DNA of 54,415 nucleotides from Acidobacteriota bacterium (lineage in GTDB: Bacteria; Acidobacteriota; Terriglobia; UBA7540): positions 1 through 54,415 of the forward strand of contig CADDZE010000025.1 in the NCBI GenBank assembly GCA_902812465.1. The letters are read 5' to 3'. Every line of letters begins with the position of its first letter. Position 1 is the stretch's first letter. The position numbers were made by a program, and so were the translations under genes. The notes below the pieces were generated by a model. That model saw nothing but the letters and a program-made list of their open reading frames with translations, did no database searches and had not been told where the DNA came from. Shown here in pieces: positions 4,149 to 47,420 of this stretch.

Positions 4149-4157
4149 ATTATATCA
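4149..4157 (-). promoter_or_regulatory. Candidate extended -10 promoter for the FmdB gene
   Basis: On the minus strand the bases read TGATATAAT, a perfect TGn-TATAAT extended -10 element. There is no good -35 box, as is usual for extended -10 promoters. Transcription would begin near 4142, about 64 bases before the TTG start. Confidence 0.4.
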
Positions 4158-4385
4158 ACGTTGGGCAGGCCGCGCCTATTTAGCGTGGGGGTTGGGGGTG
4201 TAGGCCCGGGTCACGGCCTGTGATCCACGGCTCTAAGAGTGCCTGATAGGACCGGCCCGGGCGGCCGGTGCGTGGCCAGAGCCGTCTGGCCCAGTGTGGG
4301 GCTGGGCCTTTCTAAGGCCACAAAGGTGAGGAACTGCCGCTTGCAGCGGGCTTTCGGAAAAACGAGCAGGAGGTGCAGGTTAAAG

Positions 4386-9235: not shown

Positions 9236-9314
9236 GCATGACCTTCTGCGCCCGTAGCTTGATGCCTTAAGCCGCTTGCTCGGCCTGGCAATTTCGAATT
9301 CGGAGTGACGTCTC

Positions 9315-11114: not shown

Positions 11115-11399
11115 GACCTCTATGGGCCTCGGTCTCTGGTGGCAGGTTGTTCATCGTGGAGCCAAGTCATTTTCGGCCGGGCAGATTGTGGCCGTGATCA
11201 GAGATTCAGAATCACGGTTCTGGCAGGGCTCTGTTCCGTTGCCGGGGTATTTCTGAGCGGGCGTTCGCCCAAGCGGGGCGCACTAAAGGTCAACGATCTC
11301 CAGGAGCGCTAGGCAAGGCAGAAAACGACACCTGGCTGTGGTGGACACTCGGCGACCTGGCTGTGAACAATTGGATGTTCGGGGCTCACGTAGGCGCGG

Positions 11400-25325: not shown

Positions 25326-26213
25326 TCATCGTAGCCAGGCGGGTCGGCCATATCGGCCTAGCAGGCCGTGGCTCAGACCCAGCACAATGGAGCGAATGCC
25401 TGCCATTGATCTAATGTCGCTTTGTGTGCGCAGGTTCCAGAAAACAGAACGTGCACATGCGATCCAAAAAGCGGCGCGGGACAAAGGTGCATGAATGCGC
25501 CTAAGGTGTTCGTACAGCAGAAAGCGGTTGCGGAAAACAAAATAGATCTTGTGTCGGTCCGGATGAGTTTTCGGTGGCAGTTTCCTTTCCAGTCCAATGT
25601 AGTTCACGTAGATCACCTTCGTCCACTGGGACGCCCGGTAACCGTAGATGGTGTCGTCTCCTAAGATAAAGAACCGTGGGTCCGGGTAACCAATGTGATC
25701 AACAACTCGGCGGTGAATCAGCGCGCCTTCGAAGCAGGCGTAATTCACCTCGATCCATTCGCGGCCATCGTCAAAGGAAATATCCTTGGGGAGCGGCCGT
25801 TTCTCGGGGAACGAGAAATCCCATCGTCCCTCCCACGGGAAGGCAGTGCCTTGATAATGGCGCCGAACATGGATGAAGTCGGACACAGGCGCATAACATA
25901 GCATCACTTGCAGCGCCGTTGGCAAAGGCTCGACATCGTCGTCCATCACCCACATCCAGTCGAAACCCGATCCGTAAGCGTGCTTCATGCCAGCGTGAAA
26001 GCCACCGGCACCCCCCTGGTTCTCTGGAAGCCGGAGTACGTGAACCTGGGGAAAGCATGTTGCCAGCATTTCCTCGGTGCCGTCCGTCGACGCATTGTCG
26101 ACCACGAGAATCGCATCTAACGGACGAGTTTGCTTCAAAAGGCCCTGCAGGCACTCTGCCAGCAGAGCCTTGCGATTATAGGTCACCACGACGGCGCAGA
26201 CTTGTTGGCTCAT
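25326..26213 (-). CDS. Glycosyltransferase family 2, galactofuranosyltransferase-like
   Basis: 295 residues. The GT2 entry is VCAVVVTYNRKALLAECL, followed by ILVVDNASTDGTEEML. The metal-binding acidic motif is MDDDVEP, which is the DDD form seen in GlfT-type galactofuranosyltransferases and rhamnosyltransferases rather than DxD. The ATG at 26213 overlaps the stop of the UDP-galactopyranose mutase gene as ATGA; that coupling is the main reason to suggest Galf transfer. GAGGAA lies upstream inside glf. Confidence 0.85.
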   Translation of the reverse strand: MSQQVCAVVVTYNRKALLAECLQGLLKQTRPLDAILVVDNASTDGTEEMLATCFPQVHVLRLPENQGGAGGFHAGMKHAYGSGFDWMWVMDDDVEPLPTALQVMLCYAPVSDFIHVRRHYQGTAFPWEGRWDFSFPEKRPLPKDISFDDGREWIEVNYACFEGALIHRRVVDHIGYPDPRFFILGDDTIYGYRASQWTKVIYVNYIGLERKLPPKTHPDRHKIYFVFRNRFLLYEHLRRIHAPLSRAAFWIACARSVFWNLRTQSDIRSMAGIRSIVLGLSHGLLGRYGRPAWLR

Positions 26214-27331
26214 GGTGCAGCGATTTCCTCGAAAAGTCTTAAGGCGCGCCCGACCGCCTGATCCATGTTGTAATACTTGTAGTCGCCAAGCCTTCCTGCA
26301 AACAATACCGAGCCGTTCAGCTTGGCGGCTTCGCGGAGGTAGAGCTTGTGCTGTTCGCGATTCTCTTCGCGAGGAATGGGGTAGTATGCCTCGTTTTGCC
26401 CCGGCACATGCTTCTCGGGATACTCGCGGACAATGGTCGTTCGGGGTAAGGCTTGACCCGATAGGTACTTTTGTTCCGTAATGCGGGTGAACCGTTCCCC
26501 GTTCGGATAGTTGATCGTCCCTGCTTCCTGATACCACTCGCAATCCACAGTAAGAAATTCGAATGTAAGGCTGCGATAGGGCAGCGGACCGTGAACGTAG
26601 TCGAAGAACTCGTCGATCGCGCCAGTAAAGACCATGCGATTGAATCGTACTTGGCCTTGAATCCGCCGGTAGTCGGTGTCGAGCCCCACTTCAATGTTAG
26701 GATGGGCTAGCATGCGGCGGAACAACTCAGCGTAACCACGTGCGGGCATGGCCTGATATGTGTCCTGAAAGTAGCGGTCATCCCAGCTGACGTGCACGGG
26801 GACGCGGCCCGTGACTGACGGATCGAGGTCCTCGGGACGGAACTCCCACTGCTTCAACGTGTATCCCAAAAAGATCTTCTCGTACACCAAGTCAGCAAGG
26901 GCACTTAACTCCTGGTTGGCACTCTGGCGCAGCCGGAGAATGGGAATCTTGGCCCCATAACCATGGTGACGAATCAACAGATCCTCGAGCCGGGCAGCAG
27001 AGCTAGCCGGAAAGAGTCTGTGGAGGGAAGTCAGGTTGAAGGGAACGGGAACCTTTTTGCCGTCGACGACGGCAAGCACACGATGTTGGTAGGGTCGCCA
27101 TTGCGTAAATTGGGAGAGATAGTCCCACACCTTTCGGCAGTTGGTATGGAAAATGTGCGGGCCATACTGATGTACGAGCACGCCACTTTCGTCATATTTG
27201 TCGTAGGCGTTACCAGCGACGTGGCTTCGCCGGTCAACCAAGAGCACCGTCTGGCCGAGCTGGGTGGCAATCCGTTCAGCAAGCGTGCTGCCGGTGAAGC
27301 CCGCGCCGACGATGAGCCAATCTACTTTCAT
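26210..27331 (-). CDS. glf: UDP-galactopyranose mutase
   Basis: 373 residues. This FAD-dependent cytosolic enzyme converts UDP-galactopyranose to UDP-galactofuranose. The N-terminal FAD loop is WLIVGAGFTGSTLAERIA; other family marks are YGPHIFHTN, YTLKQWEFRPEDLDPSVTGRVP and the C-terminal LGDYKYYNMDQ that contacts flavin and substrate. The ATG at 27331 is chosen because the family begins immediately before the FAD loop; the open frame extends 27 codons upstream without similarity. It implies that galactofuranose is a component of the exported glycan. Confidence 0.95.
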   Translation of the reverse strand: MKVDWLIVGAGFTGSTLAERIATQLGQTVLLVDRRSHVAGNAYDKYDESGVLVHQYGPHIFHTNCRKVWDYLSQFTQWRPYQHRVLAVVDGKKVPVPFNLTSLHRLFPASSAARLEDLLIRHHGYGAKIPILRLRQSANQELSALADLVYEKIFLGYTLKQWEFRPEDLDPSVTGRVPVHVSWDDRYFQDTYQAMPARGYAELFRRMLAHPNIEVGLDTDYRRIQGQVRFNRMVFTGAIDEFFDYVHGPLPYRSLTFEFLTVDCEWYQEAGTINYPNGERFTRITEQKYLSGQALPRTTIVREYPEKHVPGQNEAYYPIPREENREQHKLYLREAAKLNGSVLFAGRLGDYKYYNMDQAVGRALRLFEEIAAP

Positions 27332-27401
27332 GAACGTCTGAAATAGGCTTACAGGAGGCGTGCGACCGAAAAGTGCCGGGTGAGGACGCGGTGCAATGGG
27401 T

Positions 27402-28538
27402 TTACGAAGCACCCAGAGCCTGGACGACTATCTGCCTCACATTCGCAAGGGTCGCCCTTACTCTGATGCCCGGGTTGCCGATCGCAATGAGCAGATATTT
27501 GATCCAAACGGGGAACAACCACAAGTCCAGCGTAAGCGCCTGCGCGTAGTATTCGCGTGAGGTGCCAAACTCCCCGCGTTGATAAAAGCGGTCGCCCAGG
27601 CCAGCGTAGACGTGAGCGCGCAACCACTGCCGTTCGGCTTCTAGCGGTACGTGGCAGTGCAAACAGTGCTCGAATTGCTGCGCGGTCGTCGTGTAATTGG
27701 GTTCGCCCTTGGCCTTGGGACCTAGATAATAGGCGTAGCGTGCTGCTATCAACCGGCGGCAGGTTCTGGCCAGTCGGGGACGGCCAGCCAAGCGAAACTG
27801 CTCTTCGAGCCGCCACAACAACGTGATGTCGTCTGAAACGATGACGTGAGGCCTTTTCTCGCGAAAACTGCGCAGCATGCTCGCATCGTGCAACCGGTAG
27901 TTAACCATGGGTTCGGCAACATACGCGACGTCATATTGAAGGGCCCACATGCACCACAGATAAAGGTCGGCCAGATGCGGCATGTCTAAAGGGAAAAAAC
28001 CTAACTTGGTGTAACAATCCTTGCGGGCCATGGCAGAGGGAGACGCGATTCCGCCTCCTGACCCCACTAAGGTCAGAGCAAAGCGGCTACGCTTGAAGAT
28101 TGTGTCTTGATTGCCGTAGAAAAACTGCGGTAGAAGGCCTGTCTCCCGGCCCTCTTCGATGCCGATGGCTGGGCAGAAGACGTATCCCACCTCGGGATGG
28201 CGCTCCATAAGGCGGATATACCGCTCCAGAACGTACGGGCGGCGCAGTCGGTCATCGGCCGAGATGAGCCAGACATACCTTCCACGCGAGAGGCCAATGC
28301 CTTTGTTGTAGTTTCGCAGATGGCCGAGGTTGGTGTCATTTCGAATGTACCGGACGCGCGGGTCCGAAAGGTATCGTGCGGCGACAATGGGCGTATCGTC
28401 GGGCGAGCAGTCGTCCATGATCAAGACTTCGAATTCGGTGTAGCTCTGGGACAGAATGGAATCGAGACACTCGGGTAAGAAACGGGCGAGATTGTAACAA
28501 GGAACGACAAAACTAACCATCGGCGTGGTTGTAGACAT
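27402..28538 (-). CDS. Glycosyltransferase family 2
   Basis: 378 residues. The GT-A domain (about 1-230) has VSFVVPCYNLARFL, EVLIMDDCSPDDTP and LISADDRLRRPYVL (the acidic metal motif as SADD). After residue about 250 there is a helical tail with an LRAHVYAGLGDRFYQRGEF... segment that looks TPR-like. The start is ATG 28538, 11 bases after the ABC ATPase stop. Donor and acceptor are unknown. Confidence 0.88.
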   Translation of the reverse strand: MSTTTPMVSFVVPCYNLARFLPECLDSILSQSYTEFEVLIMDDCSPDDTPIVAARYLSDPRVRYIRNDTNLGHLRNYNKGIGLSRGRYVWLISADDRLRRPYVLERYIRLMERHPEVGYVFCPAIGIEEGRETGLLPQFFYGNQDTIFKRSRFALTLVGSGGGIASPSAMARKDCYTKLGFFPLDMPHLADLYLWCMWALQYDVAYVAEPMVNYRLHDASMLRSFREKRPHVIVSDDITLLWRLEEQFRLAGRPRLARTCRRLIAARYAYYLGPKAKGEPNYTTTAQQFEHCLHCHVPLEAERQWLRAHVYAGLGDRFYQRGEFGTSREYYAQALTLDLWLFPVWIKYLLIAIGNPGIRVRATLANVRQIVVQALGAS

Positions 28539-28549
28539 GGAAGCCAACC

Positions 28550-29890
28550 CTATACCAGAAGGCTCGTAGCACGCCTGGCGGCTGAGGGTTGAGCCGCCAT
28601 TCCGCCAGTTTCCGGAGTGTGGAGTTGCCAGCGGTTCTCGATCAAGAAGGTCCCGCGCGTCGGCACGATCCCCGTTCCATAGTAATCGGACCGGCAAACG
28701 GAGATCCGAGTGGCCTCCTCGACCCAGTCGACCTCTCGTCCCGCAATATCGACACCGACAGCTAACCTGTACTCGCCGGGGACGAGCGGAAGACTGGCGA
28801 TATCACAAACGAAAAGCTGGTCACCCGTCCGCTCTTCATGGGGACGTTCGGGTTCATAAGCGGTATGGGCCGTGCAGATGCGTTGGCCGTAAGGTGTATC
28901 GAATCCCAGCCAGGCGTCGAAGCTCACGCAGGGGTGGGGAAGCGTGAAGTAGATCAGCGCACGGAGACCTTCTCCCACCGGGAGCTCGCCACTCAAAGGC
29001 TCACCAGTCTGCGTATAAAGCTCGACGCGCTGAAGGAGTGGCTGGCACTTTGGCGGGCGGCTCGGCGCCTCCGACAGGTCGATAATGTGCGACGAGCTCT
29101 GTTCTCCGCCCGCTACGACATTCCGCAGGTAGTACTGGACCGCTTCCTTCGCACACCCGCAGAAGACAGCTTGGCCGCGATCCAGCACCAACCCCCGCTG
29201 GCACAGGGCTTCGACCGCCGCCAGGTTGTGTGAGACGAACAGCACGGTGCGCCCTCCTCGGCTCACCTCGCTCATCTTCCCCAAACACTTCTTTTGGAAT
29301 CCCACGTCGCCTACCGCAAGCACCTCATCCACGATCAGAATCTCCGGGTCGAGATGCGCAGCTACGGCAAAGGCAAGCCGCACGTACATGCCGCTGGAGT
29401 ATCGCTTGACGGGAGTATCCAGGAAAGGTGCGATGCCAGAGAAGCCCACGATCTCATCGAACTTGCCCTCAATTTCAGCCTTGCGCATGCCCAAAATGGC
29501 GCCATTGAGATAAATGTTTTCGCGCCCCGTAAGCTCGGGGTGAAAACCGGTGCCGACTTCAAGCAGGCTGGCCATCCTGCCACGCAGTCGGACGGTCCCC
29601 TCGGTCGGATCGACAATGCGGGACACAATCTTGAGCAACGTGCTCTTGCCGGCACCGTTCTGGCCGATGATGGCGACCGTGTCCCCCGCGAAGACATCGA
29701 GGCTGATGTCCTTTAAGGCCCAGAAGGAGCGATTGGCAGTGTGTCTTTTCGCCGCCGTCTGCCGCCGCAGTCTCAGCCAGGGCCGACGAGCCATGTCAAC
29801 CAGCGCTTCGCGAAAACTGCCGTATAGCTGGGTTCCCTCCCCCAGCCGGTATTGCTTCGAAATGCCTCGGATTTCAATCGCTGGAACCAT
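28550..29890 (-). CDS. wzt: Polysaccharide ABC exporter ATPase with carbohydrate-binding domain
   Basis: 446 residues. The Walker A motif is GQNGAGKST (about 76-84), the ABC signature is YSSGM and Walker B is ILIVDE. The H-loop is VLFVSHN. Residues about 290-430 form the Wzt C-terminal beta-sandwich (ELYTQTGEPLSGELPVGEGLRALIYF...), which in characterised systems recognises the modified end of the glycan before export. The start is ATG 29890, six bases after the permease stop; a TTG precedes it. With the permease it forms the exporter for an undecaprenyl-linked polysaccharide across the inner membrane. Confidence 0.93.
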   Translation of the reverse strand: MVPAIEIRGISKQYRLGEGTQLYGSFREALVDMARRPWLRLRRQTAAKRHTANRSFWALKDISLDVFAGDTVAIIGQNGAGKSTLLKIVSRIVDPTEGTVRLRGRMASLLEVGTGFHPELTGRENIYLNGAILGMRKAEIEGKFDEIVGFSGIAPFLDTPVKRYSSGMYVRLAFAVAAHLDPEILIVDEVLAVGDVGFQKKCLGKMSEVSRGGRTVLFVSHNLAAVEALCQRGLVLDRGQAVFCGCAKEAVQYYLRNVVAGGEQSSSHIIDLSEAPSRPPKCQPLLQRVELYTQTGEPLSGELPVGEGLRALIYFTLPHPCVSFDAWLGFDTPYGQRICTAHTAYEPERPHEERTGDQLFVCDIASLPLVPGEYRLAVGVDIAGREVDWVEEATRISVCRSDYYGTGIVPTRGTFLIENRWQLHTPETGGMAAQPSAARRATSLLV

Positions 29891-29896
29891 CAATGC

Positions 29897-30814
29897 TCAC
29901 ACCACGTCCGCGAAGTCGCGCTCCATACGCCGGAAGACGAAAAGCCCGGCCACAAACCATATGGCGCTGACACCCAGCGAGAGGACTGCTGGCCCCCAGG
30001 CAGCCGGAATGCCCAGCAAGGCATGCCGGAAGCCTTCAATGACACCGGTCATAGGATTGAGTGCCACGAAAGTCCGCAGCCGCGCGGGCAAGCGGCTCAG
30101 CGGATAGATCACTGGCGTCAGAAAGAAAGCCATTTGTATGGCAAATGGCACCACGTATTTAATGTCCCGAAAGTAGACATTCAGCGCGGCGAGAACCAGC
30201 CCAGCTCCGGTGGTCGCCAGGACACCGGCCATTAAGAAGACAGGTAGCCAGAGCAGAGTTGGCGAAATCACCCAGTGATAATAGACCAGCAATAGTCCCA
30301 TAAACCCGAGGCCCACGAGGAGGTCCAGACCCAGGGCGAAGATAGTGCCCAAGGGAACGAAAAGGCGGGGGAAATAAGTCTTGCGGATCATCTGCTCGTT
30401 TCCTACCAAGCTGGTGCTCGACAAGGTAAGGGCATTGGCGAAAAACGTCCAGGGCACTAGACCAGCGAAGACAAACAGAGCGTACGGTGGCCCCCCAGTA
30501 GCTATTGTCACGACGCGGCTGAACAGGCCGCAGAAGATCAGCATCGCTAGCAAAGGCTGCAGCACCGCCCAAAGACTTCCTAAAGCGGTTTGCTTATAGC
30601 GAATTTTGACATCCCGCCACACGAGAAATCCCAAAAGCTCGCGGTGATGCCAGAGCTCGCGCCAGTCGATACCTTGCCATCCCCGGCGAGGCCGGATCAC
30701 GACTTCAAAACCGGATGAATCTGGTCTGGCCTCCCTGGAACTTCGATGGCGAGGCGCTTGCGTGGTGACTGAAAGCTCTCCGCGCCCCGTTATAAGCGAG
30801 ATTACTGGCAACAT
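29897..30814 (-). CDS. wzm: Polysaccharide ABC exporter permease
   Basis: 305 residues with about six membrane helices and the ABC2-type fold. The N-terminal cytosolic part has ELWHHRELLGFLVWRDVKIRYKQTALG, the usual opening of Wzm/KpsM-like permeases, and the C-terminus has the ALNPMTGVIEGFRHALLG motif. It pairs with the downstream ATPase. The first 35 residues are unconserved, so a later start is possible. Confidence 0.92.
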   Translation of the reverse strand: MLPVISLITGRGELSVTTQAPRHRSSREARPDSSGFEVVIRPRRGWQGIDWRELWHHRELLGFLVWRDVKIRYKQTALGSLWAVLQPLLAMLIFCGLFSRVVTIATGGPPYALFVFAGLVPWTFFANALTLSSTSLVGNEQMIRKTYFPRLFVPLGTIFALGLDLLVGLGFMGLLLVYYHWVISPTLLWLPVFLMAGVLATTGAGLVLAALNVYFRDIKYVVPFAIQMAFFLTPVIYPLSRLPARLRTFVALNPMTGVIEGFRHALLGIPAAWGPAVLSLGVSAIWFVAGLFVFRRMERDFADVV

Positions 30815-30831: not shown

Positions 30832-33800
30832 TTACTGAGTTAGTTGAACGAAGGGTGCGACTGAGGGCACGCCCGACGTATTGACGATGAAGAGCATGTA
30901 ATAGCCGGGCGGAGCTAGGTAGGCGTTGGCGGGTGCCGTCGCGCTCAGGCCTCCGGTCGTGTGTTGGAAGTTCAACGGCACATACCGCGCGTTCTGATCG
31001 AAGAAGTGGGTGACCGCCGCGGTCCGAATCAGCACGACCGACTGAATGGTAGAGGCATCTGGTGTTGCCACAAAGAAGTTACTGCCGTACTGCAGCTGCG
31101 AAGGTGCCTGGCTGATGACCGGCCGTGGCCCCCTGAACAGGTAAGGCGGCGAATAGAATTCGGCGTTCAGCTCATCCGGCACGTTCCCGAAGTCCGCGCC
31201 CATGCCCGAGACGAGCACGCGGCCATCAGGCAACAACAGGGCCGTTGAGTGGTACTCGCGTGGCGTGTGCATCGAGGACAGGGTGGTCCAGGTCTGTGTC
31301 TGCGGCGACCACAGCTCGGCGGCGTACACCGCGTTAGCGATATTCCCGCCATTCTTGTCAGTCTCTCCGCCCGTCGCTAGTACCGTCCCGTCCGGCAGGG
31401 TTGTAAGGTTCAAGAAGCTGCGCGGATAAGCCATGGACGGCACTTGGTGCCAAGCCGGCGAGGCCTGTGTAGTGTCCAAGACGTAGGTGGTGTTGGATGA
31501 GGGCCCGACTCCCTGGCTATCGGTGGCGCTCCCCGATTTCATGATCTTGCCGGGCAGAAACATACTTGCACTGGCGCCGTCGGGGAGATTGGGATCCACC
31601 ACCGACCAGCTTTGTGAGGTAAGGTTAAGGATGTCTGTGTTAGTTGGATATTCCGAGCCGCCCACGTGGATGAGTTGTCCGTTGGGCAGAAGGTAGATGA
31701 ACGGATACGTCTCGAAGGGGTTATCGGCGCTTGTGAGTTGTGTCCACTGGTTGGTGGCGGGATCGTAGATTTCAGGAATTCCCGCGTTGGTATGTTCTGC
31801 GGTTTGCCAGCCTGCAGTGACCAGCACTCGACCGTCTGACAATGTGGTGGCCGTCGGATACCACCGGCGGTAGGCCATGTGCGGCACCGCCGCCCAGAGG
31901 TTGCTGGTCGGATCGAAGATCTCGGCGTTGGAGATCCCAAAGTTATTGCCGCTTTGCCCGTAGCCACCCGTCACCAGAATCCGGCCATCGGCTAAGGCTG
32001 CGTGTCCAGAACAGAAGAGGTCTGCGGGAGCGGGAACATTGGTGAATGTGTTGTTCATGTAATCCCAAATGGTTGGCGTGCTGCCGTCTTCGTAGAACAG
32101 CACTTTGTTGTTCTTCAGCAGAATCAGGTTGACGGCGACGGCTGGCAGATTGACTACCGAGGACCAGCTTCCCACCACCGACGGATTACCTGAATTATCG
32201 ACCGTGACCGTGATCGGTGCCGAGGTACCCTGGTCACCCGCGGCGTTGTAGGCGATCGCCGATAGAATGTGCTGCCCGTTCGAGACAGTTGTGGTGTCCC
32301 AAGTCATCGAGAAGGGAGGCGAGGTAATCTGGTTTCCCAAATTGACGCCATCCAACACAAACTGCACCGCGGATACCGCCACATTTCCCGGCGCCGTTGC
32401 CCAGAGAGTAGTCCGGCTGCTGACCGTTGCTCCCGTGGCAGGAGCATTGATGGACACCGTGGGGGTTCGTAGGCTGACCGCAGGCAACACTTCGCAAATG
32501 CTCAAATTGAAGCGATCCCCGGTGGGGCCCGTGTCATTGATGCTGAGCACCGTTCCACTTTGAGGCGTGGCGCTGGTCTGTCGCTGCACCCAGTACGTAT
32601 CTCCACCGGGCGACAAGTACTGGTGCACCATCGTCTGATTGGGCCCGAGCTTGCGGGCGATGGCACGATCCCAATCGTTGCCCACACCAACCAGCCATGA
32701 GTTGTTCCGCGTGGTAGTGAGCGTAGCAAAAGGCGCTGCGAAGTCGCCGGACCCCGACGCGACGGCTCCAATGGCCCCTGAGCCATTACTTCCGGAGCTA
32801 TCCGCTCCGATAAAGCTCATCACCGTGATCGAGGAGGCTACCTTCTGGGACAGTGTGGCAGTGACGGTGACGTTGTTCAGCGGCGAAGTGGCCAATGCCC
32901 GCCAGATCTCGGACGTTCCCTGCTCGACGTTGGTCCGCACCACCAGCACCCACGTTAATCCTGCCCCGGAGATCCCAGTAACCTTGGTATTCGTTCCGGA
33001 AACGTAGTCGGTAGCCACAAATGCCAGAAGCAACTCGTTGGAGGAAGTGGTCGAAAACTTGGGGCTGGTCACCGCCAAGCTTGCGCTTCCCTGATCGCGC
33101 GAGGCCACGGCATCGATCGCCAGGGATCCAGAAGGCGGCGCGGGCTGGGCAGCGAAGTTGATGCCGCTCTGGTTGGCGTTGTTGATGGTGACGCCCTGGC
33201 TGGGAGGGTTAAAAGTGAAGCCGGGCTTCGTTGGCGTGACAGTATAGGAGCCGTTGCTCAGTCCGCTGAAACTGTAGTTGCCAGAAGGGTCGGCGGTGGT
33301 GCTGCCGTTTGAAGTTCCCGTAAGAGTCACGGTGGCTCCGCTGCCGTACGAAGCGGGGGTGATTGTGCCTGAAATGCTCCAGGTTTGGCCGCCGGTCGAC
33401 GCGGCAAGGATTTCGCAGATGCTGAGGTTGTAGCGGTCACTGGTCGGCGCCGTATCGTTGAGGGTGACCAGAGTGCCGCTGCTCGAAATGGGGTTTGTTT
33501 CCCTCTGCACCCAGTAAGTATCTCCTGTGGGAGTAAGATCCTGATGCACCAGGGTCTGGCCTGGCCCCACGGTTCTCTCGATGGGGTTATCCCAGTCGTT
33601 GCCCACACCTACCACCCAGGAACCATTGCGCGTGGTTGTCAGGCTTGCGGTGGGGGCCCCAGGGTTAGCGTTTCCGCTCCCAATCGCTCCGATCGCTCCA
33701 GAGCCGTTCGTCCCGGAACTGTCGACGCCCGTGAAACTCATGACTGTGATGGACGCCACCACTTTCTGAGAAAGGGTAGCGGTAACGGAGACGTTGGCCA

Positions 33801-34107
33801 GCGGGGACACGGCGAAGGCTCGCCAGATCTCGGACGTGCCGTTCTGCACGTTTGTTCGTATTACAGGGGCCCAGGTCAGTCCCGCACCGGACACGGCGGT
33901 AACCGTCGTGTTGGCGCCGGAGAGGTAGTCGGTCGAAATAAAGGCCAGCAAAAGCTCGTTGCCCGAGGCGGTCGAAAACGTGCTGGTCGCGATCGTGGTG
34001 CTCGCAGTCGATCCGTCTTGGGAAGTAGTCACATCCAGCGCGATCTGGCCGGAGAGAGGCGGGGCCAGCATTGCTAGCAGCACGAGTCTCAACAAGAGCT
34101 TGGTCAT
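30832..34107 (-). CDS. Secreted AA5 copper-radical oxidase (glyoxal/galactose oxidase-like)
   Basis: 1,091 residues with signal peptide MTKLLLRLVLLAMLAPPLSG; AAGGAG lies upstream of the ATG. Residues about 23-236 and 328-546 are two copies of the same beta-rich module. They are separated by a carboxypeptidase-regulatory-like repeat (about 240-322) and followed by an Ig-like domain (about 549-645). Residues about 650-990 are a kelch propeller and about 995-1091 the DUF1929 cap. All copper-radical ligands seem present: C699 (FCSG) and Y750 (RRWYPT) for the Cys-Tyr cofactor, Y952-H953 (REYHST) and H1034 (VTHFF). The RWYPT form is closer to glyoxal oxidase (GlxA) than to galactose oxidase. Such enzymes oxidise primary alcohols or aldehydes to give H2O2. 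In Streptomyces, GlxA acts with a cellulose-synthase-like enzyme in surface glycan deposition, a parallel that fits this location. Confidence 0.88.
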   Translation of the reverse strand: MTKLLLRLVLLAMLAPPLSGQIALDVTTSQDGSTASTTIATSTFSTASGNELLLAFISTDYLSGANTTVTAVSGAGLTWAPVIRTNVQNGTSEIWRAFAVSPLANVSVTATLSQKVVASITVMSFTGVDSSGTNGSGAIGAIGSGNANPGAPTASLTTTRNGSWVVGVGNDWDNPIERTVGPGQTLVHQDLTPTGDTYWVQRETNPISSSGTLVTLNDTAPTSDRYNLSICEILAASTGGQTWSISGTITPASYGSGATVTLTGTSNGSTTADPSGNYSFSGLSNGSYTVTPTKPGFTFNPPSQGVTINNANQSGINFAAQPAPPSGSLAIDAVASRDQGSASLAVTSPKFSTTSSNELLLAFVATDYVSGTNTKVTGISGAGLTWVLVVRTNVEQGTSEIWRALATSPLNNVTVTATLSQKVASSITVMSFIGADSSGSNGSGAIGAVASGSGDFAAPFATLTTTRNNSWLVGVGNDWDRAIARKLGPNQTMVHQYLSPGGDTYWVQRQTSATPQSGTVLSINDTGPTGDRFNLSICEVLPAVSLRTPTVSINAPATGATVSSRTTLWATAPGNVAVSAVQFVLDGVNLGNQITSPPFSMTWDTTTVSNGQHILSAIAYNAAGDQGTSAPITVTVDNSGNPSVVGSWSSVVNLPAVAVNLILLKNNKVLFYEDGSTPTIWDYMNNTFTNVPAPADLFCSGHAALADGRILVTGGYGQSGNNFGISNAEIFDPTSNLWAAVPHMAYRRWYPTATTLSDGRVLVTAGWQTAEHTNAGIPEIYDPATNQWTQLTSADNPFETYPFIYLLPNGQLIHVGGSEYPTNTDILNLTSQSWSVVDPNLPDGASASMFLPGKIMKSGSATDSQGVGPSSNTTYVLDTTQASPAWHQVPSMAYPRSFLNLTTLPDGTVLATGGETDKNGGNIANAVYAAELWSPQTQTWTTLSSMHTPREYHSTALLLPDGRVLVSGMGADFGNVPDELNAEFYSPPYLFRGPRPVISQAPSQLQYGSNFFVATPDASTIQSVVLIRTAAVTHFFDQNARYVPLNFQHTTGGLSATAPANAYLAPPGYYMLFIVNTSGVPSVAPFVQLTQ

Positions 34108-34172: not shown

Positions 34173-35351
34173 TTATGTCCCTGTTGGGGCAAAAGCTCCG
34201 ACTTGGGAGATAGATTCAACAACGTAGTCCTGTTCTTCTTCCGTCATCTGGTGGAACAAGGGCAAAATCACCGTGCTGTTAGCTGCCGCTTCGGTCTCGG
34301 GAAGACTGACTTTCCATTTCTCCTCTTGATAGGGTACTTCCCGGTGTATGGCCATGACGCCGCGGCGGGTTGAGATGCCGCGCTCCAGCAGTGCCTGCAT
34401 CAAGGTCTCCCGGGAAACGGGTGCATCTGGCCGTAGGCGCACCATGTAAGACTGGAAGTTATGCCGCGCACCCGCAGACTCCTCCGGAGTCTTTAGCCAC
34501 GGCACTCGTTCAAGGTGCCGGGAATACCGGGCGGCTAGATAACGGCGCCGTTCCAGCAGCCGATCAAACCGCCTGAGCTGCACCAGCCCGACGGCCGCTT
34601 GCAGGTCGCTCATTCGGTAGTTGTAACCCACCTCATCGTATGTCTCGAACACAACCTGCCGGGCAGTATGCCGCGTGACGTCGGAAGCGCTCATCGCGTG
34701 CTGGCGCAGCCGCCGAATCCTCTCAGCGAGGTCAGCATCCGCCGTTGTAACCATGCCGCCTTCCCCTGTGGTCAGGATCTTGCGCGGGTGGAAGCTGAAG
34801 CAGGCTGCAACGCCGTGAGGCATTCCGATTCGGCGTACGAAGTATTCCGAACCAAGCGCGCAAGCCGCGTCTTCAATCACCAGTAGGCCGTATCGCGAGG
34901 CGACGGCCAGAATTTCGTTGAGAGCGGCGGGCAGACCTACTTGGTGAACCACGAGGATGGCCCGCGTTCGGCGTGAAATCGCTTCTTCGATCCGCGTCGG
35001 GTCCAAGTTGTAGGTTTCCCGGTCGATATCTGCAAAGACTGGGCGGGCGCCGGTATAAGCAATCGCGTTGGCCGTGGCGATGAAAGACAGGCTGGGACAG
35101 ATGACTTCGTCTCCCCTGCCGATGCCCAGCGCCACCAGCGATAGGTGCAGTGCCGTCGTGCACGACGACACCGCTACGGCGTGCGGCGCTCCTACATAAG
35201 CAGCAAAGGCTGCTTCGAACTCTGCCACCCGCGGCCCTTGGCTTAGCCAGCCGCTTCGCAGCACCTCGGCGACCGCTGCTTCTTCCTCCAAACCCACATA
35301 GGGCCGCGCCACAGGAATGAGACGGAGTCCACCTGACAAGGTACGGCTCAC
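34173..35351 (-). CDS. DegT/DnrJ/EryC1/StrS sugar aminotransferase
   Basis: 392 residues. This PLP enzyme aminates a keto-sugar nucleotide. Marks are the N-terminal VARPYVGLEEEAAVAEVLRSG, the cofactor region VIEDAACALGSEY and the Schiff-base lysine K191 in SFHPRKILTTGEGG. GTG 35351 is the start because it overlaps the epimerase stop as GTGA. Its order after an epimerase and an acyltransferase suggests a module making an N-acyl amino sugar. Confidence 0.9.
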   Translation of the reverse strand: MSRTLSGGLRLIPVARPYVGLEEEAAVAEVLRSGWLSQGPRVAEFEAAFAAYVGAPHAVAVSSCTTALHLSLVALGIGRGDEVICPSLSFIATANAIAYTGARPVFADIDRETYNLDPTRIEEAISRRTRAILVVHQVGLPAALNEILAVASRYGLLVIEDAACALGSEYFVRRIGMPHGVAACFSFHPRKILTTGEGGMVTTADADLAERIRRLRQHAMSASDVTRHTARQVVFETYDEVGYNYRMSDLQAAVGLVQLRRFDRLLERRRYLAARYSRHLERVPWLKTPEESAGARHNFQSYMVRLRPDAPVSRETLMQALLERGISTRRGVMAIHREVPYQEEKWKVSLPETEAAANSTVILPLFHQMTEEEQDYVVESISQVGAFAPTGT

Positions 35352-36331
35352 CGGCCACGCTCCATCAGTTCTTCGGACTTGACTGACTGCCGCCAGCGGA
35401 TCAGTCGCTCGAGGCCCGTGCGGAGATCCACGCGGGTGCGGAAGCCGAGCAGCCTTTCCGCCTTCTCCACGGCTGCACGCCGCGCCTTCACGTTCGCCAC
35501 CTTGCGCGCCTCGCGGTACTCGGGTTGCAGCGGCGAGCGGGTAAGGTGCAGCACCAGATAGCACAGCTGACGAAGACTCGTCTGCACCCCAGTGCCGACA
35601 TTCAAGATTTCATCGGTCACGGGGCTCTCCAGCGCCAGCAAGTTGGCGCGCGCCACATCGTCGACGAAAACGAAGTCCATGGACTGGCTGCCGTCACCAA
35701 AGATACAAGGCGGTTTGCCATGGTCGATGGCATCCAGCCAGCGGATCAGTACCTCAGTGTAGAGACCCTCGAGGTCCATGCGGGGCCCGTAAACGTTAAA
35801 GTAACGCAGCGCCACGTAGTGAAGCCCAAATGTTTCATAATACGCGCGCAGCATTTGTTCGTTGGCAATCTTCCCGGCACCATACAGAGTGCGGTTATTG
35901 AACGGATGCGCTTCATCCATCGGGAGATAACTGGGTTCGCCGTAAACCGAAGCCGAGGATGCCGCAACAATCTTCCTGACTTTGTGGCGAACCGCGGCCT
36001 CGAGTATGTTCAGAGTACCAACGATAAGCACTTCGGCGGCTTCGCGTGGCACTTCGGCGCAGCGCGTGATGCGCAGAGCGGCCTGGTGGAAGACGTAGTC
36101 GGCGCCTGCCATGACATGATCCACCAGCTCGCGGTCGCGGATATCACCTTCGATCACCCGCAGGCAATCCTGTTTCATTGCCGGCTCGAGATTCCGGCGG
36201 CTACCGCGAACGAAATTATCCAGAACGCGCACCTCGCCCGCACCGGCGGCCAGCAGGTGGTCGACGATGGTGCTGCCGATAAAACCGGCTCCGCCGGTGA
36301 CCAATACGCACTTTCCGGGGATAGGGTTCAT
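35348..36331 (-). CDS. NAD-dependent sugar epimerase/dehydratase (extended SDR)
   Basis: 327 residues. The Rossmann loop is VLVTGGAGFIGSTIVDHLL and the catalytic elements are SSASVYGE and YGAGK (YxxxK). Also present are LRYFNVYGPRMD and the substrate-side FGDGSQSMDFVFVDDVARA. It resembles UDP-GlcNAc 4-epimerase/GalE-type enzymes; the exact reaction is uncertain. The ATG overlaps the upstream acyltransferase stop as ATGA and its own stop overlaps the aminotransferase start as GTGA, so the three are translationally coupled. Confidence 0.9.
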   Translation of the reverse strand: MNPIPGKCVLVTGGAGFIGSTIVDHLLAAGAGEVRVLDNFVRGSRRNLEPAMKQDCLRVIEGDIRDRELVDHVMAGADYVFHQAALRITRCAEVPREAAEVLIVGTLNILEAAVRHKVRKIVAASSASVYGEPSYLPMDEAHPFNNRTLYGAGKIANEQMLRAYYETFGLHYVALRYFNVYGPRMDLEGLYTEVLIRWLDAIDHGKPPCIFGDGSQSMDFVFVDDVARANLLALESPVTDEILNVGTGVQTSLRQLCYLVLHLTRSPLQPEYREARKVANVKARRAAVEKAERLLGFRTRVDLRTGLERLIRWRQSVKSEELMERGR

Positions 36332-37047
36332 CTCGTCTCCTTGGCCTCGGGCAAATCCCGGCGGAAGCGCAGAACCCGTGCCGGGACGCCAGCCACGATG
36401 GCGTATTCAGGGACTTCGTGCGTGACCACCGCTCCGGCGCCCACAATGGCGTGGGCACCTACCCGCACCCCGGGGAGGATCGTCGCGTTGGTACCGATGT
36501 CCGCTCCGTATCCGATCACCACGGGCTTGATCACCAGGTCCGTAGCAATGACCGGCTCTTCGAGAGGCACGCCGGTATGCGTTGATCCAAGCACCTTGGC
36601 TCCAGGCCCCCAGCCCACGTAGTCTTCGAGCACGAGGTTTCGGGCGTCAAAATAGGCGTGCGGGCCAATCCAAACGTGGTTCCCGATGGAACAGGTGCCG
36701 TCGAACCGCCCCTGGATCATCGTATGAGCACCGATGAACACACCGTCTCCGAAACTCATGGTCTCCGGGTGCTGGAACACTACTTCGGGGCTCACCTGGA
36801 GGCCGTGCCCAGCCTTTCGGCACAGCGCACGTAATAGGACACGTCGCATCAGCGCATCAAAGGGCGACTCGCCGCCGCGAAAACGCGCGAACAGTCCCTG
36901 CAAGTCCTCGGCGCGATGTAACTTGCGGAGCGCCGAGGCCAATTCGATCTCCCAGTGGGGATCGGGATGCGTCTGCCGGCGCCCGAAGGTAGCCGCCACC
37001 GTTCTCTCGGCTGTTAAATCGTCCTTGCCGTTGCTGGCGTAAGGCAC
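36328..37047 (-). CDS. Hexapeptide-repeat acyltransferase
   Basis: 239 residues. The C-terminal 150 residues form a left-handed beta-helix with imperfect [LIV]-G-x4 repeats (GDGVFIGAHTMI, IGNHVWIGPHAYF, IGYGADIGTNATILPGVRVGAHAIVGAGAVVT) and end in the sugar-acetyltransferase motif VAGVPARVLRFR. The N-terminal 90 residues are helical and unassigned. The start is GTG 37047, five bases after AGAGGTGA; it overlaps the upstream aminotransferase by 34 bases. It probably acetylates an amino-sugar nucleotide or a lipid-linked sugar. Confidence 0.85.
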   Translation of the reverse strand: MPYASNGKDDLTAERTVAATFGRRQTHPDPHWEIELASALRKLHRAEDLQGLFARFRGGESPFDALMRRVLLRALCRKAGHGLQVSPEVVFQHPETMSFGDGVFIGAHTMIQGRFDGTCSIGNHVWIGPHAYFDARNLVLEDYVGWGPGAKVLGSTHTGVPLEEPVIATDLVIKPVVIGYGADIGTNATILPGVRVGAHAIVGAGAVVTHEVPEYAIVAGVPARVLRFRRDLPEAKETR

Positions 37048-38144
37048 TCCGTCACCTCTAAGATCGCTGCTGCCACATACTCGACGGCTTCTGCTCCTAA
37101 GCCTGGATACATGGGCAAGGAGAGCAGCCGTTGGGCGACACGTTCGCATACTGGAAGATCGCCGGAACGATACCCTAAGGAGCGATACGCTTCCTGCAAA
37201 TGCAGGGGCAGGGGGTAATGCAGCCCGGTCTCGATCCCATGCCGGGCCAGCTCGCCACGCACCCTATCTCGGTCGTCTACCTGCACGACGTAAAGATGGT
37301 AGACGTGCCGCCCGTACGGCATCTCCACCGGCGGAACCACGTTCGAGCCCCTGAGGCGGCGGCCATACTCCTCCGCCAAAGCGCGCCGTTCTTGGTTCCA
37401 AAGATCCAGATGCGGCAACTTCACCGATAGAATTGCTCCTTGGATTCCCTCCATGCGAAAGTTGTATCCGGGGAAAGCGTGTTCGTACTTCGAGACTGAC
37501 CCGTGGTTGCGCAGCAGCCGGATGCGCCGTGCGAGTTCTGCGTTGCGCGTCACCACCGCCCCGCCTTCGCCGCACGCCCCCAGGTTCTTGCTGGGATAGA
37601 AGCTGAAGCACCCGATGTCGCCAACAGTTCCAGCTTTTTGCCCCTTGTACTCGGCGCCGTGCGCCTGGCAAGCGTCTTCCACCACCGCCAAGCCGTGCGC
37701 TCGGGCTATTTCCAGCAGCGGATCCAAGTCCGCACACTGGCCATAGAGGTGTACCGGAACGATCGCCCGGCACTTGGGAGTGATGGCGCTTTCCACGCGC
37801 GCGACATCCATGGTGTAGGACACGGGATCGATATCCACAAACACCGGGCGGGCGCCGACGGCGCTAATCGCTTCGGCCGTGGCGATAAACGTATTGGCCA
37901 CGGTAATAACTTCGTCGCCGGGGCCAACGCCGAGGGCCTGAAGGGCCAGCTGTAAGGCTGCCGTGCCTGAATGGAGCGCGATGGCCTGTGCCACGTCGAG
38001 GTATTCGGCAAACGCCGTCTCAAAGCGCTCAACTTCGGGGCCTAGGATAAAGCTTCCACGTTCGAGAACCCGCGCGAACGCCGCCTTTAATTCCGGCTCC
38101 AGCTCGCAATGCTGGACGCTGAGATCGACAAAGGGAACCTTCAC
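37014..38144 (-). CDS. DegT/DnrJ/EryC1/StrS aminotransferase, WbpE-like
   Basis: 376 residues. It opens KVPFVDLSVQHCELEPEL, as WbpE/WlbC-type enzymes do. The PLP site has VVEDACQAHGAEYKG and K186 in SFYPSKNLGACGEGG. The start is GTG 38144, overlapping the preceding stop as GTGA. Its direct neighbours are a WbpD-like N-acetyltransferase and a WbpB-like oxidoreductase, so the predicted step is amination at C3 of a UDP-GlcNAcA derivative. Confidence 0.9.
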   Translation of the reverse strand: MKVPFVDLSVQHCELEPELKAAFARVLERGSFILGPEVERFETAFAEYLDVAQAIALHSGTAALQLALQALGVGPGDEVITVANTFIATAEAISAVGARPVFVDIDPVSYTMDVARVESAITPKCRAIVPVHLYGQCADLDPLLEIARAHGLAVVEDACQAHGAEYKGQKAGTVGDIGCFSFYPSKNLGACGEGGAVVTRNAELARRIRLLRNHGSVSKYEHAFPGYNFRMEGIQGAILSVKLPHLDLWNQERRALAEEYGRRLRGSNVVPPVEMPYGRHVYHLYVVQVDDRDRVRGELARHGIETGLHYPLPLHLQEAYRSLGYRSGDLPVCERVAQRLLSLPMYPGLGAEAVEYVAAAILEVTECLTPATARTI

Positions 38145-38620
38145 GCGGCCACCGCCTTTCGCAGCAAGCGCGCCGGGTTGCCTGCGACCACCGCGTGATC
38201 GGGTACATCACGGGTGACCACGCTGCCGGCGCCGACAATGGCGTCCTCGCCGATGGTCACGCCACATAGGATGGTGGCGCCGGTGCCAATGGACGCTCCG
38301 CGCTTGACGCGCGTTGGCACCACCTTCCAGTCCGCTTCGGTTTGCGGTTCGCCCGTAGGGCCTGTGGCTCGCGGGTATTTGTCGTTAATGAAACTGACGT
38401 TGTGTCCGATGAAGACCCCATCCTCGATGACCACGCCTTCGCAAATGAAGGTGTGGCTCGATATTTTGACGTTTCGTCCGATAATCGCGTTCTTTTGGAT
38501 CTCCACAAATGCCCCGATTCGGCTGTTGTCGCCGATCGTGCAGCCATAGAGATTGACGAAAGCATGGATTCGGACTCCGGGCCCGAGTTTCACATCTTCC
38601 GCAATACGGCAATACTCCAT
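38141..38620 (-). CDS. Hexapeptide N-acetyltransferase, WbpD-like
   Basis: 159 residues, made almost wholly of hexapeptide turns. The segments GCTIGDNSRIGAFVEIQKNA and ICEGVVIEDGVFIGHNVSFIND, with the insert KYPRATGPTGEPQTEADWK, are characteristic of WbpD/WlbB, which acetylates UDP-2-acetamido-3-amino-2,3-dideoxy-glucuronate. AAGGAGG lies nine bases before the ATG. It ends in the VAGNPARLLRK motif. Confidence 0.9.
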   Translation of the reverse strand: MEYCRIAEDVKLGPGVRIHAFVNLYGCTIGDNSRIGAFVEIQKNAIIGRNVKISSHTFICEGVVIEDGVFIGHNVSFINDKYPRATGPTGEPQTEADWKVVPTRVKRGASIGTGATILCGVTIGEDAIVGAGSVVTRDVPDHAVVAGNPARLLRKAVAA

Positions 38621-38644
38621 GTTGGATTGCCTCCTTGGTTCTGG

Positions 38645-39679
38645 TCAGGCGCTCGCCCCTACGGGCTGGTTCTGGTCGAGTTCCACGAGGGCGCCGCGAC
38701 GCTTCATCGAGCGCGTGGCGCCCTCAAGAATGCTCACCACGCGCAGCCCGGCATAGCCATCCGTCGTCGGCCGCTCGCCGTTTTGAATACACTGTGCGAA
38801 GTGCCTCACTTCGTGGTGCAGGCCTTCTGTCATGTCGAGCTGCGGCGCGGACATGTCGCCCAAGCGGTAGCCGATCAGGGTGCTGTAAATCACTTCCGGG
38901 CTAGTGCTGATGGTGACTCCCCGGTCATAAATCTTCACCTTCTCGCTCGGTTCCATGTCGTCGTACACGATCATGCGCTGGCTTCCACCAATGAGTGTGC
39001 GCCGCACTTTCACTGGAGAGAGCCAATTGACATTGATGTGAGCGATGAGCGGACGATCGAAGAACAGCGTAAGATAGGCGATGTTCTCGCGGTCGCCCAC
39101 ATGGTTCATCCCCGTCGCGCTGACGGCCGTGGGGTGTGCCGGCAGCACAAAGTCCATGATCGCCAGGTCGTGCACCGCTAAGTCCCAGAGGACGTCTACG
39201 TCGCTCTGGAAGAGGCCCAAATTCACTCGCATAGAGTCGTAGTAGTAGATCTCACCCAGCTGCCCCTCGGCGGCCAGCGACTGGATTTTGCGCACAGCCC
39301 CTGTGTAGACGAACGTATGATCGACCATTAGAGTTAGACGTCGCCGCTCGGCCTCATCGATCAGCCTTTTCGCCTCCTCCGACGTGCTGGTCATAGGCTT
39401 TTCGACCAGCACGTGCTTGCCGGCTCGCAGGGCCTCGAAGGCGAGCTGAAAGTGCGTGGAAACCGGCGTGGCCACGGCGACCGCATCGATATCTTCGCGG
39501 GCGATTAGCGCGTGGCTGTCACGCGTGACCTCGATGCCGGGATAGCGTCTCCCGACCAGCGCCAGCCGCTCGGAGGAGGTATCGCACACGGCTACAACCT
39601 TGGTTTCGCCCGCTTCCGCAAAGTTGCGGACCAAGTTCGGTCCCCAGTAGCCGTAGCCGACGATACCGACGCGAATCAT
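38645..39679 (-). CDS. Gfo/Idh/MocA oxidoreductase, WbpB-like
   Basis: 344 residues. The NAD-binding loop is RVGIVGYGYWGPNLVRNF, the catalytic motif is HVLVEKPMTSTSEEAKRLID, and the C-terminal sheet carries DLAVHDLAIMDFVL. In the Wbp pathway this enzyme oxidises C3 of UDP-GlcNAcA before transamination. AGGAG lies upstream of the ATG. It leads the WbpB-D-E-like trio, 24 bases ahead of the acetyltransferase. Confidence 0.9.
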   Translation of the reverse strand: MIRVGIVGYGYWGPNLVRNFAEAGETKVVAVCDTSSERLALVGRRYPGIEVTRDSHALIAREDIDAVAVATPVSTHFQLAFEALRAGKHVLVEKPMTSTSEEAKRLIDEAERRRLTLMVDHTFVYTGAVRKIQSLAAEGQLGEIYYYDSMRVNLGLFQSDVDVLWDLAVHDLAIMDFVLPAHPTAVSATGMNHVGDRENIAYLTLFFDRPLIAHINVNWLSPVKVRRTLIGGSQRMIVYDDMEPSEKVKIYDRGVTISTSPEVIYSTLIGYRLGDMSAPQLDMTEGLHHEVRHFAQCIQNGERPTTDGYAGLRVVSILEGATRSMKRRGALVELDQNQPVGASA

Positions 39680-39742: not shown

Positions 39743-42700
39743 TCACTGGCCAATGCCGGAGAGGCCGACTCTCTGCGGGCTGTTCGGAGCGTTGTCGTAA
39801 ACGGCCACGCTGGCCGTGCGAATCCCTGTTCTCGTCGGTGTGAAAGTGACGGTGATGAGGCATTGCGCCGCGGGTGCTACGCTGGTTGCGCAGTTGTTGG
39901 ATTGAGTAAAATCCCCGGGATTGTTGCCGATCAGGGTGATCGTGCTGATGGTCAGGTCGGCCGTGCCCGTATTGGTCAGAATCACGACTTGTGGTGCGCT
40001 GGCGGTGTTGACGTTGACCGAGCCGAAGAAGAGCGATGCGGGCGACAGGCTGACCGCCGGCTGGATCCCGGTGCCGCTCAAACTTACCTTCTGCGGGCTT
40101 CCAGGTGCATTGTCGCTGATATTCAGAGACGCGCTCTTCACTCCCACGGTTTTGGGTGTGAAGGTGACGTTGATGGTGCAGTTGGCTCCAGCGGGCAGTG
40201 ATGCCGGGCAGTTATTGGTTTGGGCGAAGGATGCGGGGTTCATACCGCCCATCGCGATGCGCGTGAGGGTCAGCGGAGCCAATCCTGTGTTCGTCAGGGT
40301 GACAGCCTGGGGGGGACTGCTCGTACTGACTAATTGGTTACCGAAGGCCAGCGACGTGGGAGACAGACTCACGGCGGGCGTCGTCCCCGTACCGCTCAAA
40401 CCCACTTTCTGCGGACTGCCGGCCGCATTATCACTGATGCTCAGCGACGCAGTCTTGGCACCGGCGGATGTCGGCGTAAATGTCACGCTGATGGTGCAGT
40501 TTGCGCCCGCACCGAGCGACGCCGGGCAGTTGTTGGTTTGGGCGAAGGCACCGCTGTTCGTCCCCGTGATACCGATACTACTGATCGTCAGTGTCCCCGA
40601 ACCGGTATTCGTCAGAGTCACCGTCTGGGGTGGGCTGGTCGTGTTCACCGGCTGGTTGCCGAAATTGAGCGAGGCGGGCGAGAGACTGACCGCAGGCGTC
40701 GATATTCCTGTTCCAGTAAGGCTCACCGTTTGAGGACTGCCCGTTGCGTCATCGCTGACGCTCAGCGACGCAGTGCGGGTTCCGGTGGCCGTCGGCGTGA
40801 AGGTCACGTTGATGCTGCAGTTCGCTCCGACGCCTAATGAAGCGGGACAGTTGTTGATCTGGGCAAAATCTGTACTATTTGTACCGGTGATGCTGATGCT
40901 GGCTATATTGAGCGTGGCCGAGCCGGTGTTGGTCAGAGTCACAGCTTGGGGCGCGCTGGTCGTATTCACGGGTTGGTTGCCGAACGAGAGTGACGTCGGC
41001 GATAGGCTGGCCGCCGGCGCGGTGCCCGTTCCGCTCAAACTCGCCGTTTGCGGGCTGCCGACACCGTCGTCACTGACGCTGAGCGAGGCGGTGCGCGTAC
41101 CTGTGGCCGTGGGCGTGAAGGTCACATTGATTGTGCAGCTGGCGTTCGGTGCGAGGGTCGACGGACTGAGTGGACAGGTGTTGGTTTGCGCGAAATCTCC
41201 GCTGTTGGCGCCGGTTATGCCGATACTGGTGATGGTGAGGGGCGATGCGCCGGTGTTGGTCAATGTCACGGCCTGAGCCCCACTCGTCGTATTCACCAGC
41301 TGGTTTCCAAACGAGAGCGATGACGGTAAAAGGTTGACGGTAGTGGCATTGGTTCCCACCCCGGAGAGCGACACCGTCCGCGGGCTACTTGGGTCCGAAT
41401 CGCTAATGGTCAAAGTGCCGGTACGAGTCCCGGTCCCGGTGGGCGTGAACGTCACACTGATGGTGCAGTTCGATCCCGCCGGCAAGCTGGTACCGCACGT
41501 GTTCGTCTGCGCAAAATCACCGGAGGTTGAAACGCTGCTGATCGTAAGCGTGCTGCTCGAGTTGTTTGTCAGAGTCACGGTTTGGGGCGCGCTGGTGGTA
41601 TTCACCTGTTGACTTCCAAAGGAAAGGGAAGCGGGGGAGACCGTTACGGCGCTAGAGGCGAAGACCACGTCGACCCAGTAATTGCTGGCGTTAAAGCCGG
41701 AAGCAGGAAAGGGATTATCGGCGCTGTAGCTGTAGACGCCGTTAGGCCCCGAAGCTCCGTCCGCCAAGGCGTGCAGGGGCGGATTATCGAAACCCCGAGT
41801 TGCAAAATAGCCTTGATCGTCGGCGTAATGCCCGACACTGGTGTGGTACGACGCCACGTACACTGTATTCGCCGTGATCGCCACCGGGCTGCTGAAACTG
41901 ACTTGCTGCCATCCCGAAGCCGTTTCGTTCGTGAAAATGGCCGTGGCCAATAGGGTCCCGCTGCTGGTCCACAAGCTACCGGTGTGCGTGCCGGTGTTTG
42001 CGGCACTCTTGTAGAAGCGGATGCCGGTGATGTATCCGTTCTGGTCTGAGGTGAATTTTAGTCCCAGTTCCACGGGCTGGTCAGGCCCGGCGTCTGGGGT
42101 GCTTGGTGTTCCGGAGGTCCAGATACTGCAGGGGCACTGCCCGGGAGCTCCGACGGTCGTGAAAGACCACGTATAGTTTGAAGAGAGAGCGTTCCCATTG
42201 GTGTCCTTCACGCCGTTGGCCCCTCCTAAGACGTTCGCCGTATAAGTGGTCGAGTTGGATAGCGCCTGTGTGGGCGTCAAGGTAGCCGTAAACGTCGAAC
42301 TGTTGTAAGCCACCGCGGCTGGAACGACGCAGCTGCCTTCCGTGCAGCCCACCGCCAGCAGTTGGAAGGTGTTCGTGTTAATGGTGGTAGGATCCATCGC
42401 CTCATTGAACGTTGCGGTGACGGTTGCCGTGGTGGTGACGTTCACTGCCCCATTGGCGGGCGAAACCGAGGTGACGATGGGACCGCTACCCGTGCCTGAG
42501 GGGGAAAATACGACGTCCACCCAGTAGTTGCTGGCATAATAGCCGCTGGAGGGAAAGGTACTGCTCGACCCGTAGGCAAAGACGCCGTTGGGGCCATCTA
42601 CTCCGTTCGCGAGGGCGTGCAAAGGGGGGTTGTCAACTCCGGTCGTACTGAAGTAATTCTGGTCATCGGCGTAGTGTCCGAAATTCGAATGATAGGAGAT

Positions 42701-47387: not shown

Positions 47388-47420
47388 CGGTTGTCCCGGT
47401 TCAGAAGTTGCCGGCCTACC

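Follow-up and report, generated by a model that had tools for sequence, protein, structure and literature searches.

We examined a 54,415-nucleotide contig of an Acidobacteriota bacterium (CADDZE010000025.1, assembly GCA_902812465.1; this whole stretch is hereafter the window) and identified a gene for an AA5-type copper-radical oxidase within an extracellular polysaccharide (EPS) cluster. The open reading frame called by the first-pass annotation of this DNA was borne out in its coordinates (Table 1), with the correction that it lies on the minus strand; AAGGAG was found 9 nt upstream of its ATG. It is the sole PF09118 gene in its genome. Pfam matches within the protein covered a Glyoxal_oxid_N/kelch region (residues 680–813) and a GO-like_E_set domain (residues 995–1088, E 1e-24), while accessory modules account for about 60% of its length. 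Among these, the duplicated N-terminal modules noticed earlier were found to be a true pair, here referred to as module A (65% identity over 215 residues), although the copies do not adjoin each other, as a CarboxypepD_reg-like module lies in between.

All five residues previously proposed for the active site (C699, Y750, Y952, H953 and H1034) were found at their positions, with W749 directly before Y750. The Cys-Tyr pair, the axial Tyr and both His align to GlxA and galactose oxidase, and the combination C-W-Y-Y-H-H at the six cofactor and ligand positions was detected in 80 of the 93 homologues aligned and in 12/12 rows of the oxidase's own subfamily, two of these rows being duplicates of others. 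The top sequence match among solved proteins was GlxA (4unm; E 2e-58, profile E 3e-108), far beyond chance, and galactose/alcohol oxidases were the further best solved relatives. An AlphaFold2 model of the core, for which 30 aligned cores were the input, reached a predicted local distance difference test (pLDDT) score of 90.2 and a predicted template modelling (pTM) score of 0.91. With VIA-align, it superposed on GlxA (Z 49.3, 2.0 Å, 440 residues, 31% identity) and, tied with GlxA, on the galactose oxidase of Pseudarthrobacter (Z 50.3). Foldseek and VIA-align grouped it with every solved AA5 enzyme, whereas non-AA5 propellers showed Z scores of at most 24.5. Structure prediction and superposition, which had been suggested as a check, thus returned an AA5 fold with a complete active site. 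As the five residues align onto solved AA5 sites, they are predicted to come together in space. By every feature tested, the core is a genuine AA5 copper-radical-oxidase domain, and copper binding, thioether formation and H2O2 production from an alcohol or aldehyde would be expected by analogy with the chemistry established for AA5.

AA5-type genes were uncommon, being present in 21/396 genomes of the phylum and 50/399 of the class. Among the sampled genomes of the family to which the window belongs, just two others carried them, as tandem copies of ~41% identity, with two to three such genes in a row at L136, L141 and L143 (genomes G485 and G488; in this analysis, L-numbers label loci of relatives and G-numbers genomes). 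Nine other genomes encode the same architecture as the window oxidase (module A, CarboxypepD_reg repeats, module A, Big_7, core), and their cores are 71–77% identical. Carriers of this subfamily include Edaphobacter lichenicola, Acidobacteriaceae KBS 83, several metagenome-assembled genomes (MAGs) of Acidobacteriaceae or other Terriglobia, G382 and a MAG labelled Burkholderiales. The subfamily formed a single clade at 100/100 support, and families are mixed within it, which suggests that it spread horizontally.

The conserved link of the oxidase is a DMFA2_C-DUF4082 protein, referred to here as the partner, rather than the Wzm/Wzt exporter. A DMFA2_C gene was detected in 10/10 genomes of the oxidase subfamily, while in the class background any DMFA2_C gene was present in 90/399 genomes and the close type (scoring 869 bits or more) in about 12/299. 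Directly upstream of the oxidase, a partner gene of 60–63% identity was identified in L179, with overlapping start and stop, and in L181. The L181 pair (680–11350, plus strand) lies on a 59-kb contig of the MAG labelled Burkholderiales, reflecting either horizontal transfer or mis-binning. At L182 (G697), the contig breaks off within a DUF4082-type gene just upstream of the oxidase, and the corresponding front portion of such a gene runs off the end of a second contig from the same genome, so that the two genes appear to be adjacent. In G382, the partner lies ~30 kb from the oxidase in the same region, together with the same six-gene sugar set as in the window; partner and oxidase share one locus in both. 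Part or whole of this set (Gfo/Idh, acyltransferase, DegT, acyltransferase, epimerase, DegT) was found at nine DMFA2_C-DUF4082 loci in Terriglobia. Furthermore, 11/19 DMFA2_C-DUF4082 genes had at least two window-like EPS genes within 10 kb, whereas this was true of 3/81 other AA5 genes. DMFA2_C-DUF4082 genes are EPS genes across Terriglobia, marking a conserved EPS locus.

A profile built from 15 partner domains matched N-acetyl-(R)-beta-phenylalanine acylase (8i5a; E 1e-10) and the N,N-dimethylformamidase (DMFase) of Paracoccus (6lvb; E 4e-4). In DMFase, Y399, Y440 and E521 are the iron ligands and H519 is essential for catalysis (PMC7686228); they align with Y209, Y225, E305 and H303 of the partner, which were invariant in 15/15 homologues. 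The two Tyr fall on weaker alignment segments, whereas the H-x-E motif aligns clearly: entry 6lve, the E521A variant, has Ala at that column. The partner shares this Tyr, Tyr, His, Glu iron site with both solved enzymes but differs from them in being secreted, in its DUF4082 and choice-of-anchor-D repeats and in its placement within EPS loci. It is probably a secreted iron amidohydrolase, as predicted from these alignments.

Module A belongs to no Pfam family or known carbohydrate-binding module, gave no hhalign match when tried as a DUF4082 domain, and had no Foldseek match in the PDB at E≤0.001. Its best VIA score (Z 4.8, root-mean-square deviation 3.2 over 97 residues) falls short of establishing a new fold. 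In G394, G551 and G636, it is fused to a DMFA2_C domain, and a second, disrupted DMFA2_C gene of G636 likewise carries it. Further secreted proteins encoded in EPS loci (G618, G465, G187 and G736) contain it as well. Given the co-occurrence and the presence of module A in both, oxidase and partner share genomes and matrix modules.

As for the surroundings of the relatives, the oxidase gene lies beside a glycosyltransferase cluster in G382, and a FemAB-type gene and an exosortase gene follow it in L182. The commonest direct neighbour was a secreted AhpC/TSA-redoxin gene (SxRCPxSxxFN ... GCAxRR), adjoining the oxidase in 5/9 relatives; it is a candidate copper-handling or peroxide-removing helper. 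The window genome holds no close match to it, the best hit reaching 34% identity and containing a stop, and no Sco copper chaperone adjoins the oxidase in the window, SCO1/SenC matches lying elsewhere in the genome.

In the window, the oxidase lies between nucleotide-sugar genes and Wzm/Wzt and reads in the same direction, as first described, and Pfam matches of the neighbours (DegT twice, epimerase, GFO/IDH/MocA, hexapeptide acyltransferases, ABC2_membrane, ABC_tran with Wzt_C, GLF and GT2) identify a true EPS cluster. Only 65 bp separate the oxidase from the preceding DegT aminotransferase gene and 17 bp from the following wzm, all on the minus strand. The cluster also holds a Wzy_C protein and deacetylases. 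A formyltransferase (Formyl_trans_N; 18844–19629, minus strand) is encoded in the same EPS cluster as the DMFase-type protein, which suggests N-formyl sugars, possibly removed again. Apart from these genes, 332–2830 on the plus strand encodes a NamZ exo-beta-N-acetylmuramidase, with both its N- and its C-terminal domain, joined to a beta-lactamase-like domain.

Table 1. Coordinates of the oxidase, its domains and active-site codons, neighbouring genes and related loci (window positions unless a locus label is given)
Feature	Position	Strand	Remarks
AA5-type copper-radical-oxidase gene	30832..34107	-	1091 aa/codons; single copy in genome
Sec-type signal peptide (MTKLLLRLVLLAMLAPPLSG)	34048..34107	-	judged by eye
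Module A, copy 1 (residues 22-236)	33400..34044	-	all-beta; no Pfam family, no clear PDB fold
CarboxypepD_reg-like module (residues 244-319)	33151..33378	-	Pfam; 1-5 copies in relatives
Module A, copy 2 (residues 326-545)	32473..33132	-	65% identical to copy 1
Big_7 immunoglobulin-like linker domain (residues 549-617)	32257..32463	-	Pfam
AA5 catalytic core, kelch propeller and GO-like E-set (residues 643-1091)	30835..32181	-	Pfam, AlphaFold2, structure alignment
Cys699 codon	32011..32013	-	thioether partner
Trp749-Tyr750 codons	31858..31863	-	stacking Trp and equatorial Tyr of Cys-Tyr; GlxA W288-Y289 arrangement
Tyr952-His953 codons	31249..31254	-	axial Tyr, His ligand
His1034 codon	31006..31008	-	second His ligand
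Partner: DMFA2_C, Big_5, 2 DUF4082, 6 choice-of-anchor-D repeats	39743..44983	-	1746 aa; secreted
Six-gene amino-sugar set (DegT, epimerase, acyltransferase, DegT, acyltransferase, Gfo/Idh)	34173..39679	-	
Wzm (29897-30814) and Wzt (28550-29893) exporter	28550..30814	-	downstream of oxidase
GT2, UDP-galactopyranose mutase (GLF), GT2	25326..28697	-	
AAA_31 kinase-like, GNVR chain-length protein, undecaprenyl-phosphate sugar transferase	45040..48809	-	EPS cluster start
Module A-DMFA2_C fusion	L212 9118-16431	+	
Module A-DMFA2_C fusion	L246 1-2739	+	
Module A-DMFA2_C fusion	L206 11326-14785	+	split by disruptions
Redoxin gene	L175 11322-11960	+	
Redoxin gene	L176 11345-11962	+	
Redoxin gene	L179 9883-10461	+	
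Redoxin gene	L039 19347-19901	-	
Redoxin gene	L180 7130-7711	-	

We favour, with some reserve, the reading that this is a secreted modular AA5 oxidase of a distinct Terriglobia subfamily, with the EPS of its own cluster or closely related Terriglobia EPS as its most likely substrate. Since it lies in an EPS cluster and travels with a secreted enzyme of the iron-dependent amide-cutting type, the oxidase probably oxidises the cell's own surface polymer. Beyond the computed fold, active-site residues, subfamily, co-occurrence and shared modules, we infer activity, location, substrate and an order of steps as follows. The oxidase would be made with its signal peptide and then exported. Upon copper binding by Tyr750, Tyr952, His953 and His1034, the Cys699-Tyr750 thioether would form autocatalytically, with Trp749 stacking over it; a primary alcohol (or aldehyde) would then be converted to an aldehyde (or acid), with O2 yielding H2O2, and the oxidation sites would be hydroxymethyl or aldehyde groups of the EPS. 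The N-terminal module A blocks probably anchor the oxidase on the extracellular matrix, where oxidase and DMFA2_C-DUF4082 enzyme would work on the same polymer. Such an oxidative finishing of an exported polysaccharide, as the first-pass annotation had envisaged, may be proposed by parallel with GlxA and CslA. It is quite doubtful that the two enzymes form a curing system, in which the DMFA2_C protein would remove N-acyl groups (formyl or acetyl) from amino sugars, the oxidase would make aldehydes, and imines would crosslink the matrix; the likeness of such amine-aldehyde crosslinking to lysyl oxidase on collagen is as tentative. The cluster encodes two amino-sugar aminotransferases, acyltransferases and a sugar-type formyltransferase, and the crosslinking chemistry is conjectural.

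Several points weigh against an EPS substrate. A survey of AA5 genes next to wzm, wzt and glf contradicted the expected exporter neighbourhood: of the other members, 0/9 had more than one window-like EPS gene within 10 kb, with several contigs short and EPS genes recognised only through similarity to the window's own, and 5/9 (L175, L176, L177, L178 and L180) lie in unrelated surroundings, near neither EPS genes nor DMFA2_C. The relatives' surroundings thus rule out direct Wzm/Wzt neighbourhood as a conserved signature of the subfamily. For the EPS association expected of homologues, the picture is mixed: direct proximity is not conserved, but an indirect tie, through the co-occurring, module-sharing partner, is, and the co-occurrence counts behind this tie take no account of relatedness among the genomes. 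In addition, no residue of the oxidase points to a sugar substrate. Perhaps, then, the enzyme is an active copper-radical oxidase that works on small aldehydes or alcohols or on environmental polysaccharides and supplies H2O2, its gene being a horizontally mobile one that happened to insert locally into this EPS operon. Half of the subfamily outside EPS loci, a sporadic distribution with families mixed in the clade and one member in the MAG labelled Burkholderiales, the varied substrates of AA5 enzymes (PMC11267884) and a redoxin gene, not EPS genes, as the commonest direct neighbour (5/9) would all suit this explanation. We nevertheless regard it as rather unlikely, as the EPS-linked partner is present in 10/10 genomes, module A is common to the partner and other EPS-locus proteins, and the gaps in the window (65 and 17 bp) are tight and operon-like.

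Two other explanations concern the protein itself. It could be a structural or adhesive kelch protein, whose module A and propeller bind the matrix and whose catalysis is dispensable or lost; the ~60% share of accessory modules and the frequent role of kelch propellers as binding domains are consistent with this. However, relaxed selection would not yield cofactor and ligand residues invariant in 12/12 subfamily rows and kept in 80/93 homologues, so that this reading is very improbable. Even the close match to GlxA, the nearest solved relative by sequence, leaves scarcely any likelihood to a GlxA orthologue acting on a beta-glucan together with a cellulose-synthase-like enzyme. GlxA works with CslA, both being encoded in one operon, and may modify the growing glycan (PMC9040799), whereas the neighbours of the oxidase that were scanned, GT2/GT4, GLF and Wzm/Wzt, include no CslA-like synthase. 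Moreover, GlxA orthology was rejected at 280 bits against an equivalog cut-off of 800 (NCBIfam NF052501), the best stretch covering only residues 724–1089, and the ~110-residue insertion of GlxA between Cys and Tyr is missing.

The subfamily is a well-defined, independent clade of AA5 in Gram-negative soil bacteria and brings in a new accessory module. The interest lies mainly in the two-enzyme pairing, as the oxidase and its iron-amidase-type partner suggest extracellular chemical modification of exported polysaccharides by paired metalloenzymes. Edaphobacter lichenicola X5P2 and Acidobacteriaceae KBS 83 (L175 and L176) carry both genes, and their names suggest cultured strains. No report of AA5 or of DMFA2_C/dimethylformamidase in Acidobacteriota EPS loci was found in the open-access literature, within which the novelty claimed earlier for this phylum holds; a match linking galactose oxidase to Acidisarcina cellulose was merely a cited reference.

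To our knowledge, GlxA in Streptomyces is the sole well-studied case of a bacterial AA5 role in glycan deposition. GlxA (SCO2837; S. lividans 4unm) and the window oxidase have in common the core fold, the Cys-Tyr pair, the axial Tyr-His and the second His, as well as a Trp just before the cofactor Tyr (W288-Y289 and W749-Y750, respectively) within an RWYPT motif, which reads RAYPT in the aligned GlxA W288A entries. Both genes are placed among glycan synthesis genes; unlike GlxA, the oxidase has a long N-terminal module block and no CslA partner. The galactose oxidase of Pseudarthrobacter siccitolerans (9g43, 9g8h) shares the core fold (2.0 Å, 430 residues, 33% identity), but it reads GRGYQS where the oxidase family reads RWYPT, has different accessory domains, and possesses, ahead of its DNHAWLF strand, a loop of 12 residues which the oxidase lacks and whose residues presumably take part in galactose binding. 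The same cofactor residues and core fold were found in Fusarium galactose oxidase (1gof, AA5_2; Z 47.4) and glyoxal oxidase (9n3u, AA5_1; Z 42.5), both fungal and 26–27% identical to the oxidase, a comparison that does not establish common substrate residues. Finally, an AA5 oxidase fused to an inactive CE3 domain is described from Burkholderia pseudomallei (Mazurkewich 2023, as cited in PMC11267884). There too, an AA5 core is combined with another carbohydrate-active domain, although by fusion to an inactive one, whereas the Terriglobia pairing involves two separate proteins and a DMFase-type domain.

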